64,000 nt of DNA from an uncultured bacterium (lineage in GTDB: Bacteria; Cyanobacteriota; Vampirovibrionia; Gastranaerophilales; Gastranaerophilaceae), in NCBI GenBank assembly GCA_949284715.1, contig CASDWH010000036.1:1-64000 (forward strand), in the 5' to 3' direction. Positions 29,133-51,744 of this stretch are shown one piece after another. Every line of letters starts with the position of its first letter. Positions within the stretch are counted from its first letter, which is position 1. The translations under genes and the position numbers were made by a program. The notes beneath the pieces are model-generated. The model ran no database searches. It was not told the DNA's origin and worked only from the letters and a program-made list of their open reading frames with translations.

Positions 29133-31745
29133 CTACTTACAGGAAACCGTTAATAGTGAAGCTTCAACATCTTGAAGGATATTATCTATCATTGAAAAAT
29201 CTTTAATACCGCCCTGTGCCATATTAGGACGTCCGCCGCCGTTAGCACCGCAAGCCCGTGATATTTCACCGGCAATTTTTCCTGCATTAATACCCTTTTG
29301 TATAAAGCCGTCTGATACTTTTACAAATACAAGTCTGTTATTTACAATGATAATAATACTTTCACCAAGTTTAGAAGCCAAATACTCAGCACCGGCTTTA
29401 ATTGCATCAGCATCAGTTATTTCTGTTTTGGAAATAAATAACTTGCCGCCCTCAATATCTTTTGCCCTCGTAATGAATGCTGCAAACTTATTACGTGCAT
29501 TTTCTTCTTTTAATTCCTGAATTTGTTTTTGGAGTTCTTTATTCTCTTCTGCCAGTTTTTCGACTCTTGATTCCACTTCATCGTAATGAACTTTAAATTT
29601 TGCAGAAAGCTTATCAATCTCATCAGCCTTGGCATTTAAGTAATTAAAAGCCGCAGAAGAAACAACTGCTTCTATCCGTCTGACACCGGCAGAAATAGCA
29701 CTCTCTGAAACTATTTTTATTAATCTTAAATCACCTGTATTAGAAGCATGTGTACCGCCGCAGAATTCTTTGGATATACACCCTGATTTTTCATTACCTA
29801 TTGATACAACACGCACTTTTTCATCATATTTTTCACCAAAAAGAGCGGTAGCCCCGGTAAGTTTTGCCTCTTCAATATCCATAACCTGCGTTGTAAGAGG
29901 GAGCTGTTCCAGAATCCATTCATTAATTATATTTTCGGTTTGCTGTACCTCGGCATGCGTCATAGCTCTGGAGAGATTAAAGTCAAACCTCATTCTATTT
30001 TCTTCAACCTGCGAACCTGCCTGCTTAACTTCATTACCAACGACTTTAATCAAAGCTGCCTGCAAAAGGTGGGCTGATGTATGGTGAACTTTAATCTGGT
30101 TGCGGCGCGGCAAATCAATTGCTGCATACACCTTTTCACCAATTGTAATCTCGCCGTTCAGAAGCTTACAGCGATGTATAAACAGTTTATTTACTTTAAA
30201 AGTTGTAATAACCTCTAGTTTAAGGCTGTCATTTTCGATAACACCGCTGTCACCGATTTGTCCGCCTGATTCAGCATAAAACGGAGTTGTATCAAGAACA
30301 ACATCAACAAAACCTTCCCCTTCGACAGTTGCAAGAATTTTAGCCTCAGACTCGTATTTTTCATAGCCGACGAATTCAGTTGAACCGACTTCATTCTCTA
30401 TTTTTGCATATTTTATATCACCGGTTACACTTATTTTTTGTGCTGCGGCTTTTGCACGGTCTTTTTGTTCCTGCATTGCTTCTAAAAAGCCGTTTTCTGA
30501 TACTTTTAACCCGTTTTCTGCGGCAATTTCTTTTGTCAATTCAAACGGGAAACCGTATGTATCATAGAGTTTGAAAGCGCTTGCACCGTCTATGTCTTTC
30601 TTATTTATAATAAATTCATCAAGCAGTTTATATCCTCTATCGAGTGTTTTAGCAAAACGTTCTTCTTCTTTTTTTATCGTATCTATAATTTTAGCTTTAT
30701 TTTTCACTAAATCAGGGTAAGCAGCACCGTAATTATCAACAACAACATCAACAAGTTTGTATAAGAATGGTAAATCCATACCGAGAATTTTACCATGCCG
30801 TAATGCACGGCGGAGAATCATTCTTAAAACATAGCTTCTGCCTTCATTACCCGGGATTACGCCGTCAGAAATAAGAAAAGTAACACATCTTGCATGGTCA
30901 GTTATTATTCGGAGTGAAATGTCTGTCTTTTCGGATTTTTTATACGGAACACCGGACATTTCTGACACTTTATCAAGAATTGGTTTTAATAAATCGGTTT
31001 CAAATGTGGAAGTAACCCCCTGGCATACCATTGCAATTCTTTCAAGCCCCATGCCGGTATCAACATTTTTGCTTTCAAGCGGCGACTGGTTTCCTTCTTC
31101 ATCCTGATAGAGTTCTGTGAATACAAGATTCCAAATCTCAACCCACCGGTCACACTCACAGGTATCAATCCCGCAATCCGGAGAGCATTTAAACTGTTCG
31201 CCCAAATCATAGTGAATTTCAGAACACGGGCCGCAGGAGCCTGACGCGCCCGGAGGCCCCCAGAAATTATCCTTTTTGCCTTTACGTTTAATTCTTTCTG
31301 CCGGAACACCTACACTGCGCCAGATTTCATAAGCTTCATCATCAGTTTCAAAAATTGTTATCCAGAGTCTGTCTTTATCCAGTTTCAAAACATTTGTAAC
31401 AAAATCCCACGCCCACGGGATTACCTCTTTTTTATAGTAATCACCAAAAGAAAAGTTTCCGAGCATTTCAAAAAAAGTATGGTGGCGCGGAGTTCTGCCC
31501 ACATTCTCTATATCAGAATCCTTGCCGCCGGCTCTTGCACATTTCTGGCAGGAGGCAGCACGCGGCGGATTGTAGGGAGATTTAACTATCCCTAAAAATA
31601 TCGGCAAAAATTGCAGCATGCCGGCAGTTGTAAGCAGCACCGTAGGATTATCCGGCACAAGACTCGAGCTTTCAACAATCGTATGCTGGTGTTTTTCCTT
31701 AAAAAAATTCAAATATAAATCCCTTATTTCATTACCTTTTAACAT
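29133..31745 (-). CDS. alaS: alanyl-tRNA synthetase
   Basis: 870 residues, full length. It starts MLKGNEIRDLYLNFFKEKHQHT, with class II motif 1 to 3 features in the N-terminal third (TTAGMLQFLPIFLG, FFEMLGNFSFGDYYK, GMGLERIAMVCQGV). The editing domain has HHTSAHLLQAAL and CGGTHASNTGDL with the zinc-binding His/Cys residues. A coiled coil and the C-Ala domain follow, ending with GANGGGRPNMAQGG. It charges tRNA-Ala and clears Ser/Gly mischarging. The leader holds a hairpin-rich element (31818-31903) that may be a separate small RNA or an attenuator. Confidence 0.97.
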   Translation of the reverse strand: MLKGNEIRDLYLNFFKEKHQHTIVESSSLVPDNPTVLLTTAGMLQFLPIFLGIVKSPYNPPRAASCQKCARAGGKDSDIENVGRTPRHHTFFEMLGNFSFGDYYKKEVIPWAWDFVTNVLKLDKDRLWITIFETDDEAYEIWRSVGVPAERIKRKGKKDNFWGPPGASGSCGPCSEIHYDLGEQFKCSPDCGIDTCECDRWVEIWNLVFTELYQDEEGNQSPLESKNVDTGMGLERIAMVCQGVTSTFETDLLKPILDKVSEMSGVPYKKSEKTDISLRIITDHARCVTFLISDGVIPGNEGRSYVLRMILRRALRHGKILGMDLPFLYKLVDVVVDNYGAAYPDLVKNKAKIIDTIKKEEERFAKTLDRGYKLLDEFIINKKDIDGASAFKLYDTYGFPFELTKEIAAENGLKVSENGFLEAMQEQKDRAKAAAQKISVTGDIKYAKIENEVGSTEFVGYEKYESEAKILATVEGEGFVDVVLDTTPFYAESGGQIGDSGVIENDSLKLEVITTFKVNKLFIHRCKLLNGEITIGEKVYAAIDLPRRNQIKVHHTSAHLLQAALIKVVGNEVKQAGSQVEENRMRFDFNLSRAMTHAEVQQTENIINEWILEQLPLTTQVMDIEEAKLTGATALFGEKYDEKVRVVSIGNEKSGCISKEFCGGTHASNTGDLRLIKIVSESAISAGVRRIEAVVSSAAFNYLNAKADEIDKLSAKFKVHYDEVESRVEKLAEENKELQKQIQELKEENARNKFAAFITRAKDIEGGKLFISKTEITDADAIKAGAEYLASKLGESIIIIVNNRLVFVKVSDGFIQKGINAGKIAGEISRACGANGGGRPNMAQGGIKDFSMIDNILQDVEASLLTVSCK

Positions 31746-32073
31746 AACATTCCCTCAATAACTAATCTTATATTATTATAATTCAAAGATACCAAAAATA
31801 TACATTCATTGAATTATAAAAACGCGCAGGTAGAGAAAAACCTGCGCATAGAGAGGAGTAGCTTCCTCCTGGATTAAGAATAGCGGCAGTTATACTAACC
31901 GCATGCGTTTTTATATCAAATTATTCAAAATCTGGCTAAAAATCTTATTTTTCCCCTTATTATTTCATGTCTTGCAAAATTATTCATATTTTATGCACAC
32001 ATTACGAAGTATTTATAAATATATTATTAATATATTATAATTGCAAGAATTATTTTTATGAAACTGTAACCCT
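31746..32073. other. intergenic region: alaS leader, candidate sRNA, AbrB-like gene promoter
   Basis: 328 bp between the divergent alaS and AbrB-like genes. It holds the structured element at 31817-31913, closed by TAAAAACGC / GCGTTTTTA inverted repeats. Beyond that (31920-32073) it is very AT-rich, and I see no ORF or tRNA there. Confidence 0.6.
31818..31903 (-). ncRNA. candidate small RNA or alaS leader, copy 1 of an 18-nt-core family
   Basis: On the minus strand an extended -10 (TGATATAAA, ending at 31910) precedes a 5' hairpin (GCGG/CCGC, 31901-31882 region). Next is CTATTCTTAATCCAGGAG, a small AGGAG/CTCCT hairpin, and a terminator GCGCAGGT/ACCTGCGC (31847-31824) with GTTTTTA. The core CTATTCTTAAT(T)CCAGGAG recurs at 50611-50629, also just before a minus-strand terminator. 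No Rfam family comes to mind. It could be an independent small RNA or an attenuated leader of alaS, 80 nt downstream. Confidence 0.45.
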
Positions 32074-49197: not shown

Positions 49198-50526
49198 ATG
49201 GCAGGAGTAGATACAATAGGCAAAGGTGCTTATATAACAAATCAAAATTACAGCGGTGTTAAAATTGATATTCATAACCCTGTAGTAAATGTACCGCAGC
49301 AAGGAACCACTGTTCAAAAAACTGAACCTGTAAAAATATACAAATATACAGAAACACAAATTCCGCCTGAATATTATCCTCAAATGATTAAAAACCAGCC
49401 GGCATTACCACCTAAGACTGTAATTGTAAAGGAATTGCCCCGGCCAAAGACAGCGGACAAGCTGCCGGAGTCTGTTATTGAAAAAGTAACAGTTCCTGTT
49501 CCGCCGGCATCTTATATTGAGGAATCAGAACCTGCACCAAACAAAAATCAAAATACAGCTCCTGTTCAAGATAAAAATGAGCAAGAACCGGCTAAACCCG
49601 CAGAGGATACAGTTATAAAGCCTTCAAACACTCCGCCGGAAGGTATTAACATAGAAGATTTAAAAACTTATGCTGCACCTCCGTCGGAGCCTGTAAATAC
49701 AATACCAGCCCCCGAAATCTCAAACACAAATAACAATACCGTAGTGAATAAAATTGCAGATCCTGAGGAAAACATAAATCGTCAACTCTCAAAAGTAGAA
49801 ATAGTTCCTCCCGGCGACACATCACCAGTCATTGATTATATAAAAATAGTAGAAAACCTTGATTCTCCAAACTATGATGTACAGGCTCTCCAGCTAAAAG
49901 AAATTGTAGATGCGGGATTAAGCGGCAAACCGGAAGCTATAAAACCATATCTTATTGAACCGGTTTTCCATAGTGTAATAGATATTGTATCAAAAGATAC
50001 AACCACTCTTGCAGGGCCAACTGATTCACAAAATCAGATTAGGAGCATGATTGCTGAAAACCTGGCAGCACACGAAAAACAAAAACAAGAAAATGTACCC
50101 GATGATAAAATTGTTCTGCCCCACAATATATCAGAGCAGGATATAAATTATGCCAATACTCTTTCCCCTCTTGAACTGGCAGAAAGAAACAAAGAGTACG
50201 GAATAGCAACTCTTGCTTTACTATCAAAAGCTTTTGTAAACAGGGTTCAAAAAGACACCGGCAGTGTAGTTCCGGTTACTGATGTCCCCGGACTCTCAGC
50301 AATCGTAAATTCTCTAAAGAGTGATAACTACAAAATCAGATTAAATGCTCTTGATGCTCTAATCTACCTTCAAAGAGAAGAATACGCAAGAGAATTAACT
50401 CCAATCTATGAAGCATTAATAAATACTGATACAAATGAAACAGTAAGAGCCGCTGCTAATTTTGCACTCAACAGCCTGAATGCTAAAAAGCTGCCGGAAC
50501 AACAAGTACAAACAGCTGCGGCCTAG
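49198..50526 (+). CDS. Pro-rich protein with GVKIDI module and C-terminal HEAT-like repeats
   Basis: 442 residues. Residues about 17-34 (QNYSGVKIDIHNPVVNVP) copy the motif of the 68-residue protein 88 bp upstream. The middle (40-200) is Pro/Glu/Lys/Asn-rich and disordered-like. The C-terminal part is helical with HEAT-type pairs (SPNYDVQALQLKEIVDAGL; NYKIRLNALDALIYLQREEY; TNETVRAAANFALNSL). AGAAAGG precedes the ATG. No signal peptide. A cytoplasmic adaptor is plausible; function unknown. Confidence 0.7.
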   Translation: MAGVDTIGKGAYITNQNYSGVKIDIHNPVVNVPQQGTTVQKTEPVKIYKYTETQIPPEYYPQMIKNQPALPPKTVIVKELPRPKTADKLPESVIEKVTVPVPPASYIEESEPAPNKNQNTAPVQDKNEQEPAKPAEDTVIKPSNTPPEGINIEDLKTYAAPPSEPVNTIPAPEISNTNNNTVVNKIADPEENINRQLSKVEIVPPGDTSPVIDYIKIVENLDSPNYDVQALQLKEIVDAGLSGKPEAIKPYLIEPVFHSVIDIVSKDTTTLAGPTDSQNQIRSMIAENLAAHEKQKQENVPDDKIVLPHNISEQDINYANTLSPLELAERNKEYGIATLALLSKAFVNRVQKDTGSVVPVTDVPGLSAIVNSLKSDNYKIRLNALDALIYLQREEYARELTPIYEALINTDTNETVRAAANFALNSLNAKKLPEQQVQTAAA

Positions 50527-50590: not shown

Positions 50591-50647
50591 AAAAAAAAAG
50601 AGCCTTTCGACTCCTGGAATTAAGAATAGTTGGAAGTATGAAAAAGA
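50591..50647 (-). ncRNA. candidate small RNA, copy 2 of the 18-nt-core family
   Basis: On the minus strand CTATTCTTAATTCCAGGAG (50629-50611) is followed by GAGTC-GAAA-GGCTC (50613-50600) with a U·G pair and nine T residues. The G·U pair and the T-run exist only on this strand, which fixes the direction. A TATAAT box lies at 50657-50652. The region is non-coding on both strands, between the 442-residue gene and fba. The core is shared with the alaS-side element at 31866-31883. Confidence 0.5.
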
Positions 50648-50787
50648 TTTAATTATATTAAATACTATTTACTGAATATATACAATGCCCCAACAGGGCT
50701 ATAATTTTAATCTGAACATGTTGTATTCCTTCTTTTTTTGTTGTACGTTAAGCATGTACGGTTTTAATTTTTAGAAGGAGACTCAAA

Positions 50788-51744
50788 ATGAGCGAAAGAA
50801 AACTCGTAGGAACAAACGAAATGTTCAAAAAAGCACTTGCCGGTAAATACGCAATCGGTGCTTACAATGTTAACAATATGGAAATTCTGCAAGGTATTGC
50901 TGAAGCGGCTGACGAAACTCGTTCGCCAATTATCCTTCAGGTATCCGCAGGCGCAAGAAAGTATGCTAACCAAACTTACTTAATCAAATTAGTTCAAGCA
51001 GCGTTAGAAACAACAACTATACCTATCGCTCTTCACTTAGACCACGGTGCTGATTTTGATATTTGTAAAGCTTGTATCGACGGCGGTTTCTCATCTGTTA
51101 TGATTGACGGAAGCCGTTTCCCGCTTGAAGAAAACATCGCTTTAACAAAACAGGTTGTTGAATATGCTCACCAAAGAGGTGTTTCAGTTGAAGCTGAACT
51201 CGGTAAATTGGCAGGCGTCGAAGATGACGTTAAAGTTGATAAAAAACACGCAACTTACACTGACCCTGAAGAAGCAGCAAGATTCGTTAAAGAAACTGGC
51301 TGTGACTCTTTAGCAATTGCTATCGGTACTTCTCACGGCGCTTACAAATTCAAAGGCGAAGCAAAATTAGACTTTGAAAGACTCGCTGAATGTAAAGCCG
51401 CTATCAATGCTGTAACAGGTTATGATTTCCCGATTGTACTTCACGGTTCATCTTCTGTTCCTAAATACTTAGTGGACAAATGCAACCAATTCGGCGGCAA
51501 CCTTCCGGATGCTCAAGGGGTTCCTGAAGAAATGCTTGCATACGCTGCTAAGAACGGTGTTGCAAAAATCAACATTGATACAGACTTAAGATTAGCAATG
51601 ACTTCTACAATCAGAGAATTCTTTGTAGAACATCCTGAAAAATTCGACCCTCGTGAATATATGGGGCCGGGCAGAACTGCCGTTAAAGAACTTGTTAAAC
51701 ACAAAATGCAAGTATTAGGTACTGCCGGTCATGCTGATGACTAA
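50788..51744 (+). CDS. fba: class II fructose-1,6-bisphosphate aldolase
   Basis: 318 residues. It cleaves fructose bisphosphate to DHAP and GAP in glycolysis, or the reverse in gluconeogenesis. Zinc and substrate motifs: HLDHGADF (83-90), AELGKLAGVEDD, GTSHGAYKF, VLHGSSSVP and KINIDTDLRLA. Length and order match the Fba/TagD group. GAAGGAG precedes the ATG. The transcript starts near a TATAAT at 50700-50705 that follows a GCCC/GGGC hairpin. A strong terminator follows. No adjacent glycolytic genes. Confidence 0.96.
   Translation: MSERKLVGTNEMFKKALAGKYAIGAYNVNNMEILQGIAEAADETRSPIILQVSAGARKYANQTYLIKLVQAALETTTIPIALHLDHGADFDICKACIDGGFSSVMIDGSRFPLEENIALTKQVVEYAHQRGVSVEAELGKLAGVEDDVKVDKKHATYTDPEEAARFVKETGCDSLAIAIGTSHGAYKFKGEAKLDFERLAECKAAINAVTGYDFPIVLHGSSSVPKYLVDKCNQFGGNLPDAQGVPEEMLAYAAKNGVAKINIDTDLRLAMTSTIREFFVEHPEKFDPREYMGPGRTAVKELVKHKMQVLGTAGHADD

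Follow-up and report, generated by a model that had tools for sequence, protein, structure and literature searches.

Does the minus strand around position 50591 carry a gene for a small RNA (sRNA), and if so, to what family does that RNA belong? The first-pass annotation of the window (the whole stretch of 64,000 nt analysed here) had proposed a new family of minus-strand sRNAs from two copies sharing an 18-nt core. As detailed below, the headline of that proposal, a new minus-strand sRNA family, is borne out by comparative evidence from related genomes (at ∼57–60 nt), whereas its basis, the pair of sites within the window, is not.

The two-site match within the window

At the 50591 site, the proposed core CTATTCTTAATTCCAGGAG is found on the minus strand at 50611–50629. 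It runs into the hairpin AGGAGTC-GAAA-GGCTCTT (50615–50598) and a run of nine T residues (50599–50591), and no open reading frame of at least 80 aa covers it. The proposed extent of 50591–50647 comes within ∼3 nt of the 60-nt RNA that we derive by comparison of copies (50591–50650). Core and terminator are where they had been placed, but the true conserved unit is longer and different, consisting of the 34 nt on the 5′ side of the terminator. The GGAG that had been counted into the core is part of the variable terminator stem, and its letters differ in other copies.

The partner site at 31866–31883 is present on the minus strand as CTATTCTTAAT-CCAGGAG and is one base shorter; however, the match is not exact and contains a one-base gap. 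An exact match of 18–19 nt had been thought not to be expected by chance. A full count of 18-nt matches that contain a single internal gap gave 10 pairs for the window and 2–11 for each of ten first-order Markov simulations of it. On its own, the 31866/50591 pair therefore carries no significance. Site 31866 is located 5′ of alaS (29133–31745), and its element ATTCTTAATCC(A/G)GGAG...CTCCTC is kept in 4/7 genomes of the genus but was seen in none of the other genera sampled. The covariance model of the 50591 family does not list the site even at E = 10. Because of the chance-level match, the restriction to one genus and the failure of the covariance model to find it, we rejected 31866 as copy 1 and as evidence for the family.

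It is very unlikely that the two sites nevertheless belong to a single sRNA family or encode separate RNAs with one functional motif. Such a motif would be ATTCTTAATYCC, which is unpaired and located just 5′ of a hairpin at both sites and which, at 31866, stays the same in four genomes of the genus despite changes around it; Yfr1 and Yfr10 provide a precedent for two RNAs with a common motif (PMC6778093). ATTCTTAATYCC may be functionally shared, but one-gap matches of the same length arise by chance, and 31866 differs from 50591 in its 5′ half and architecture.

The minus strand at 31820–31913 is predicted to form a leader-like RNA of its own that comprises three hairpins and a terminator and is strongly folded (z about −5 for both strands). 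A conserved promoter-like stretch lies further upstream, and the locus is conserved in 4/7 genomes of the genus. This RNA may be an attenuator of alaS or an independent sRNA at the level of the genus.

Anatomy of the 50591 RNA gene

The minus-strand sequence at 50591–50650 is AAATCTTTTTCATACTTCCAACTATTCTTAATTCCAGGAGTCGAAAGGCTCTTTTTTTTT. It starts with a conserved segment of 34 nt, AATCTTTTTCATACTTCCARCTATTCTTAATTCC, which is followed by a GC hairpin and a T-run (Table 1); ACUUCC and CUAUUCUUAAU are stretches of this RNA. Covariance model R1 matches the window copy over its full length, from 50650 to 50591, with 68 bits and an E value of 4.4e-12. Across copies, the predicted RNA has a length of 59–76 nt (median 64; 60 nt in the window). 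Its predicted fold contains the 3′ hairpin only, and the 5′ segment is unpaired, with no 5′ hairpin.

Table 1. Predicted features of the RNA gene at 50591 (window coordinates)
Feature	Position	Strand	Basis and remarks
Predicted small RNA, ∼60 nt	50591–50650	−	5′ end at 50648–50650, 3′ end in the T-run; covariance model R1, full length
Invariant 5′ segment AATCTTTTTCATACTTCCAACTATTCTTAATTCC, predicted unpaired, presumed pairing region	50616–50649	−	Core in 273/286 genomes
Intrinsic terminator, stem AGGAGTC/GGCTCTT, GAAA loop, nine T	50591–50615	−	Terminator prediction and comparison of copies
−10 box TTTAAT, overlapping TATAAT also present	50657–50662	−	Consensus of aligned copies gTTaaATATAAT; spacing of 17 to −35
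−35 box TTGTAT	50680–50685	−	Promoter scores exceed those of shuffled upstream sequence
Conserved upstream element GCCCTGTTGGGGCATTG	50683–50699	−	Family consensus CCA..TGG.TAATTG, overlaps −35

Within 31 nt of the segment, only one base varies among the 190 distinct copies, and it is either A or G. This figure overstates the invariance, as many of the copies were gathered by an exact pattern; still, searches free of this bias (the BLASTN-type search of 79 relatives and the search with a 32-nt core and up to three mismatches) also give mostly perfect matches. The hairpin behaves differently. An intrinsic terminator is predicted in 175/183 copies, compared with 16/915 shuffled sequences (1.7%), and is formed from 92 different 5′ stem arms. 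In nine copies of equal geometry, a set whose selection for geometry favours pairing, compensatory changes occur in all seven stem pairs and every cell is paired. The T-runs fix the strand: 177/183 copies have one on the 3′ side of the RNA, compared with 30/183 for the opposite side. Comparison of the copies thus shows a predicted terminator that is conserved in structure, not in sequence.

On the 5′ side, the putative promoter of the family consists of a TTG −35 motif, a 17-nt spacer and TTWAAT, is preceded by the CCA..TGG.TAATTG element and keeps a fixed distance from the segment. At a similar distance, 139/183 copies have a TAATTG-like hexamer (at least 5/6 positions), versus 72/183 after shuffling, and the element, which overlaps the −35 box, may be an activator site. 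Invariance sets in at the position where the geometry of the −10 box places the RNA start. Judged from the aligned sequences, the comparison shows a gene with its own predicted sigma-70-like promoter, a nearly invariant and presumably unstructured 5′ segment of 34 nt and a predicted factor-independent terminator.

Genomic context and coding potential

The 50591 site is situated between a HEAT-repeat gene (49198–50526, plus strand) and a gene for a class-II fructose-bisphosphate aldolase (50788–51744, plus strand), both of which lie on the opposite strand. Opposite-strand genes lie upstream in 141/175 copies and downstream in 115/172, window copy included. The neighbours vary, the commonest neighbour family being found at only 28/190 copies. 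Since the neighbours are not conserved and mostly lie on the opposite strand, the RNA appears to be an independent unit in varied surroundings and not a leader or 3′ UTR. Terminator-like ends are common to leaders, attenuators and 3′ UTRs, and a phage copy of the segment does sit in a 3′ UTR (see below). However, given the orientation of the downstream genes, the lack of a recurring neighbour and the finding that a same-strand frame of at least 80 codons ends within 60 nt upstream in just 5/181 copies, it is barely conceivable that the RNA is the leader, attenuator or 3′ UTR of a neighbouring gene.

We also rejected a small peptide, since the segment has no start codon and its third codon positions are frozen; the sequence of the hairpin varies freely. 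The gene does not appear to encode a protein and, with its own predicted promoter and intrinsic terminator in intergenic DNA, has the features of a trans-encoded sRNA.

Distribution across the order

A BLASTN-type search of 79 relatives with the whole intergenic region reveals that conservation beyond the genus is essentially limited to ∼49 nt, terminator included, with roughly 90–98% identity across most of the order. The first-pass annotation had called for a search of related genomes; with up to three mismatches allowed, the 32-nt core is present in 273/286 genomes of Candidatus Gastranaerophilales, an order of gut-dwelling, non-photosynthetic Cyanobacteriota, and in 255/261 of those of good quality, while the reversed pattern used as control gave 0 matches in the same 286 genomes. 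Records bearing the core are Candidatus Gastranaerophilales or gut/rumen-type metagenome assemblies. The core is absent from all sampled genomes of one family of the same order (f3) and from all other sampled orders and families of the class. Its lack in f3 may reflect either a natural loss or a later gain of the sRNA.

With the covariance model, which was built from nine copies, nearly every genome of the order gives strong matches, usually one to three; the exceptions are f3 and a small number of further genomes. The genome of the window has a true second copy (G000:C38:6847-6905(-), 73.9 bits). Weak matches in f3 or other orders (E 0.02–0.07) were inspected and rejected as homologues. The best match outside the order (G071) is a chance match in a 3′ UTR terminator that is not conserved in its family. 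An RNA that is almost letter-for-letter constant over an order is likely to have a strongly constrained role in core physiology.

Three diverged paralogues, L293 (G031:C1, about 50130), L295 (G040:C5, about 1730) and L296 (G027:C14, about 9390), retain a promoter-like region or terminator and differ in parts of the segment, which makes them useful for telling which bases of the segment matter. One genome contains an inverted pair of copies on opposite strands, ∼300 bases apart (L237:5617(+) and 6679(-), minus-strand reading; G033:C69:65269-65668), which suggests a local inverted duplication.

Proposed mode of action

We consider it probable that the locus is a stand-alone gene for a trans-acting sRNA of ∼60 nt that is independent of Hfq and pairs through its invariant 5′ segment. 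As an antisense regulator, the sRNA would use this segment to pair with several mRNAs, or with some other RNA, and would thereby change the translation or stability of its targets. With two or more loci per genome and different upstream regions, the same RNA activity could be switched on by different signals. Action would be Hfq-independent because Hfq was not detected in 39 relatives, in a search whose control was positive. The single tolerated A/G exchange should still allow pairing with U and fits a pairing role.

Searches for targets covered about 1.4 Mb of scattered sequence and are weak evidence either way. The mean duplex energy of the sRNA with 1,211 start regions is −11.7 kcal/mol, compared with −10.7 to −12.4 kcal/mol for shuffled sRNAs, and no complementary k-mer is enriched in the sampled sequence after removal of self copies. 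Two candidate signals were discarded. The k-mer excess at ATTAAGAATAGC stems largely from site 31866 and from variants of the sRNA that differ by indels. The complement of the core, GGAAGTATGAAAAAGA, resembles a Shine–Dalgarno sequence followed by an ATG-AAA-AAG start, but 11-mers across it reach at most ∼2-fold expectation.

A normal seed would require fewer invariant positions than these 34 nt, which leaves room for a protein-binding role. The main rival explanation, which we regard as unlikely, is a real RNA that acts by protein binding, titrating or guiding an RNA chaperone or global regulator, and not by mRNA pairing. The occurrence of UUCCA twice in the segment (ACUUCCA and AAUUCCA) and the absence of target enrichment from both the duplex-energy and the k-mer searches are consistent with it. 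On the other hand, the segment is predicted to have no fixed structure, Hfq was not found among the relatives, and the sole variable base shows just the change that pairing with U would permit.

A copy of the segment in a phage

Two IMG/VR contigs, IMGVR_UViG_3300028832_000174 (L290:8888-8955) and IMGVR_UViG_3300037512_000666 (L289:978-1045), contain the exact 32-nt segment of the sRNA. They are identical in this region and read AAATCTTTTTCATACTTCCAGCTATTCTTAAT, followed by a different hairpin and a T-rich tail. The phage segment begins inside the stop codon of a gene for an SNF2-type helicase, and neighbouring genes encode phage proteins, among them two related to proteins of phage Pam3, an endolysin-like protein and a reverse transcriptase. 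A search of 192 genomes of the order, run without a positive control, did not recover one protein of the helicase phage. More distant relatives of the helicase are present in other viral contigs; the core is in no other viral contig searched, and the plasmids and annotated phages searched gave no match.

We rejected the phage copy as an att site, since the records, which are possibly fragments, contain no tyrosine integrase. More generally, it is highly improbable that the conserved segment is a DNA element (a protein-binding or attachment site) and not RNA. Near-perfect sequence conservation and the recurrence of the same 32 nt in one phage lineage would suit such an element, but its two sides differ, with a terminator and compensatory stem changes on one side only and a promoter at a fixed distance on the other, and the phage copy comes with its own hairpin and T-rich tail.

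A more far-reaching idea is that the sRNA, with a nearly invariant pairing segment that matches no known family, is the central Hfq-independent regulatory RNA of the whole order, and that a phage took over this segment to terminate its helicase mRNA and so to imitate or hijack the host regulon. We put this forward as a tentative possibility, on the unlikely side. The phage copy represents a natural test of whether phages exploit the sRNA.

Comparison with known RNAs

The first-pass annotation had also suggested an Rfam scan. The 64-kb window has no match at gathering score in Rfam 15, and matches at E ≤ 10 are chance matches far below the gathering scores. In the literature searched, which included few subscription papers, we found neither an sRNA of Gastranaerophilales or Vampirovibrionia nor the 50591 family. 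We regard the 50591 RNA as a new family within a kind already known, probably that of the small trans-encoded sRNAs. It opens a direct way into post-transcriptional regulation in gut bacteria that are represented largely by metagenome assemblies and apparently lack Hfq.

Trans-encoded sRNAs of the enterobacterial type are likewise intergenic, with their own promoter, an unstructured 5′ pairing region (presumed for the 50591 RNA) and an intrinsic terminator. They differ in that no Hfq was found in the genomes with the 50591 RNA, and in that the invariant part of the latter is far longer than usual seeds. Yfr10 of Prochlorococcus is a precedent for RNAs that have one common motif and little else, as might be the case for 31866 (PMC6778093), but its motif is another one, and sharing between 31866 and 50591, a chance-level match, is not established.

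The closest likeness is to Yfr1 of photosynthetic cyanobacteria, which has 54–69 nt, an unpaired motif ACUCCUCACAC and a 5′ stem-loop (PMC2190773, PMC6778093). Both RNAs are short and ubiquitous in a large lineage, and in both a conserved unpaired sequence is followed by a GC-rich terminator hairpin with a U-tail; the 60 nt of the window copy fall within the size range of Yfr1, the copies as a whole having 59–76 nt. In contrast, the motif of the 50591 RNA is unrelated and about three times longer, and there are several copies per genome. Although ACUCCUCACAC is absent from the 60-nt RNA and the Yfr1-type 5′ stem-loop from its predicted fold, so that it lacks the defining motif and 5′ hairpin, the 50591 RNA would, by analogy, work most like Yfr1, whose hosts are the sister group of the organisms studied here.
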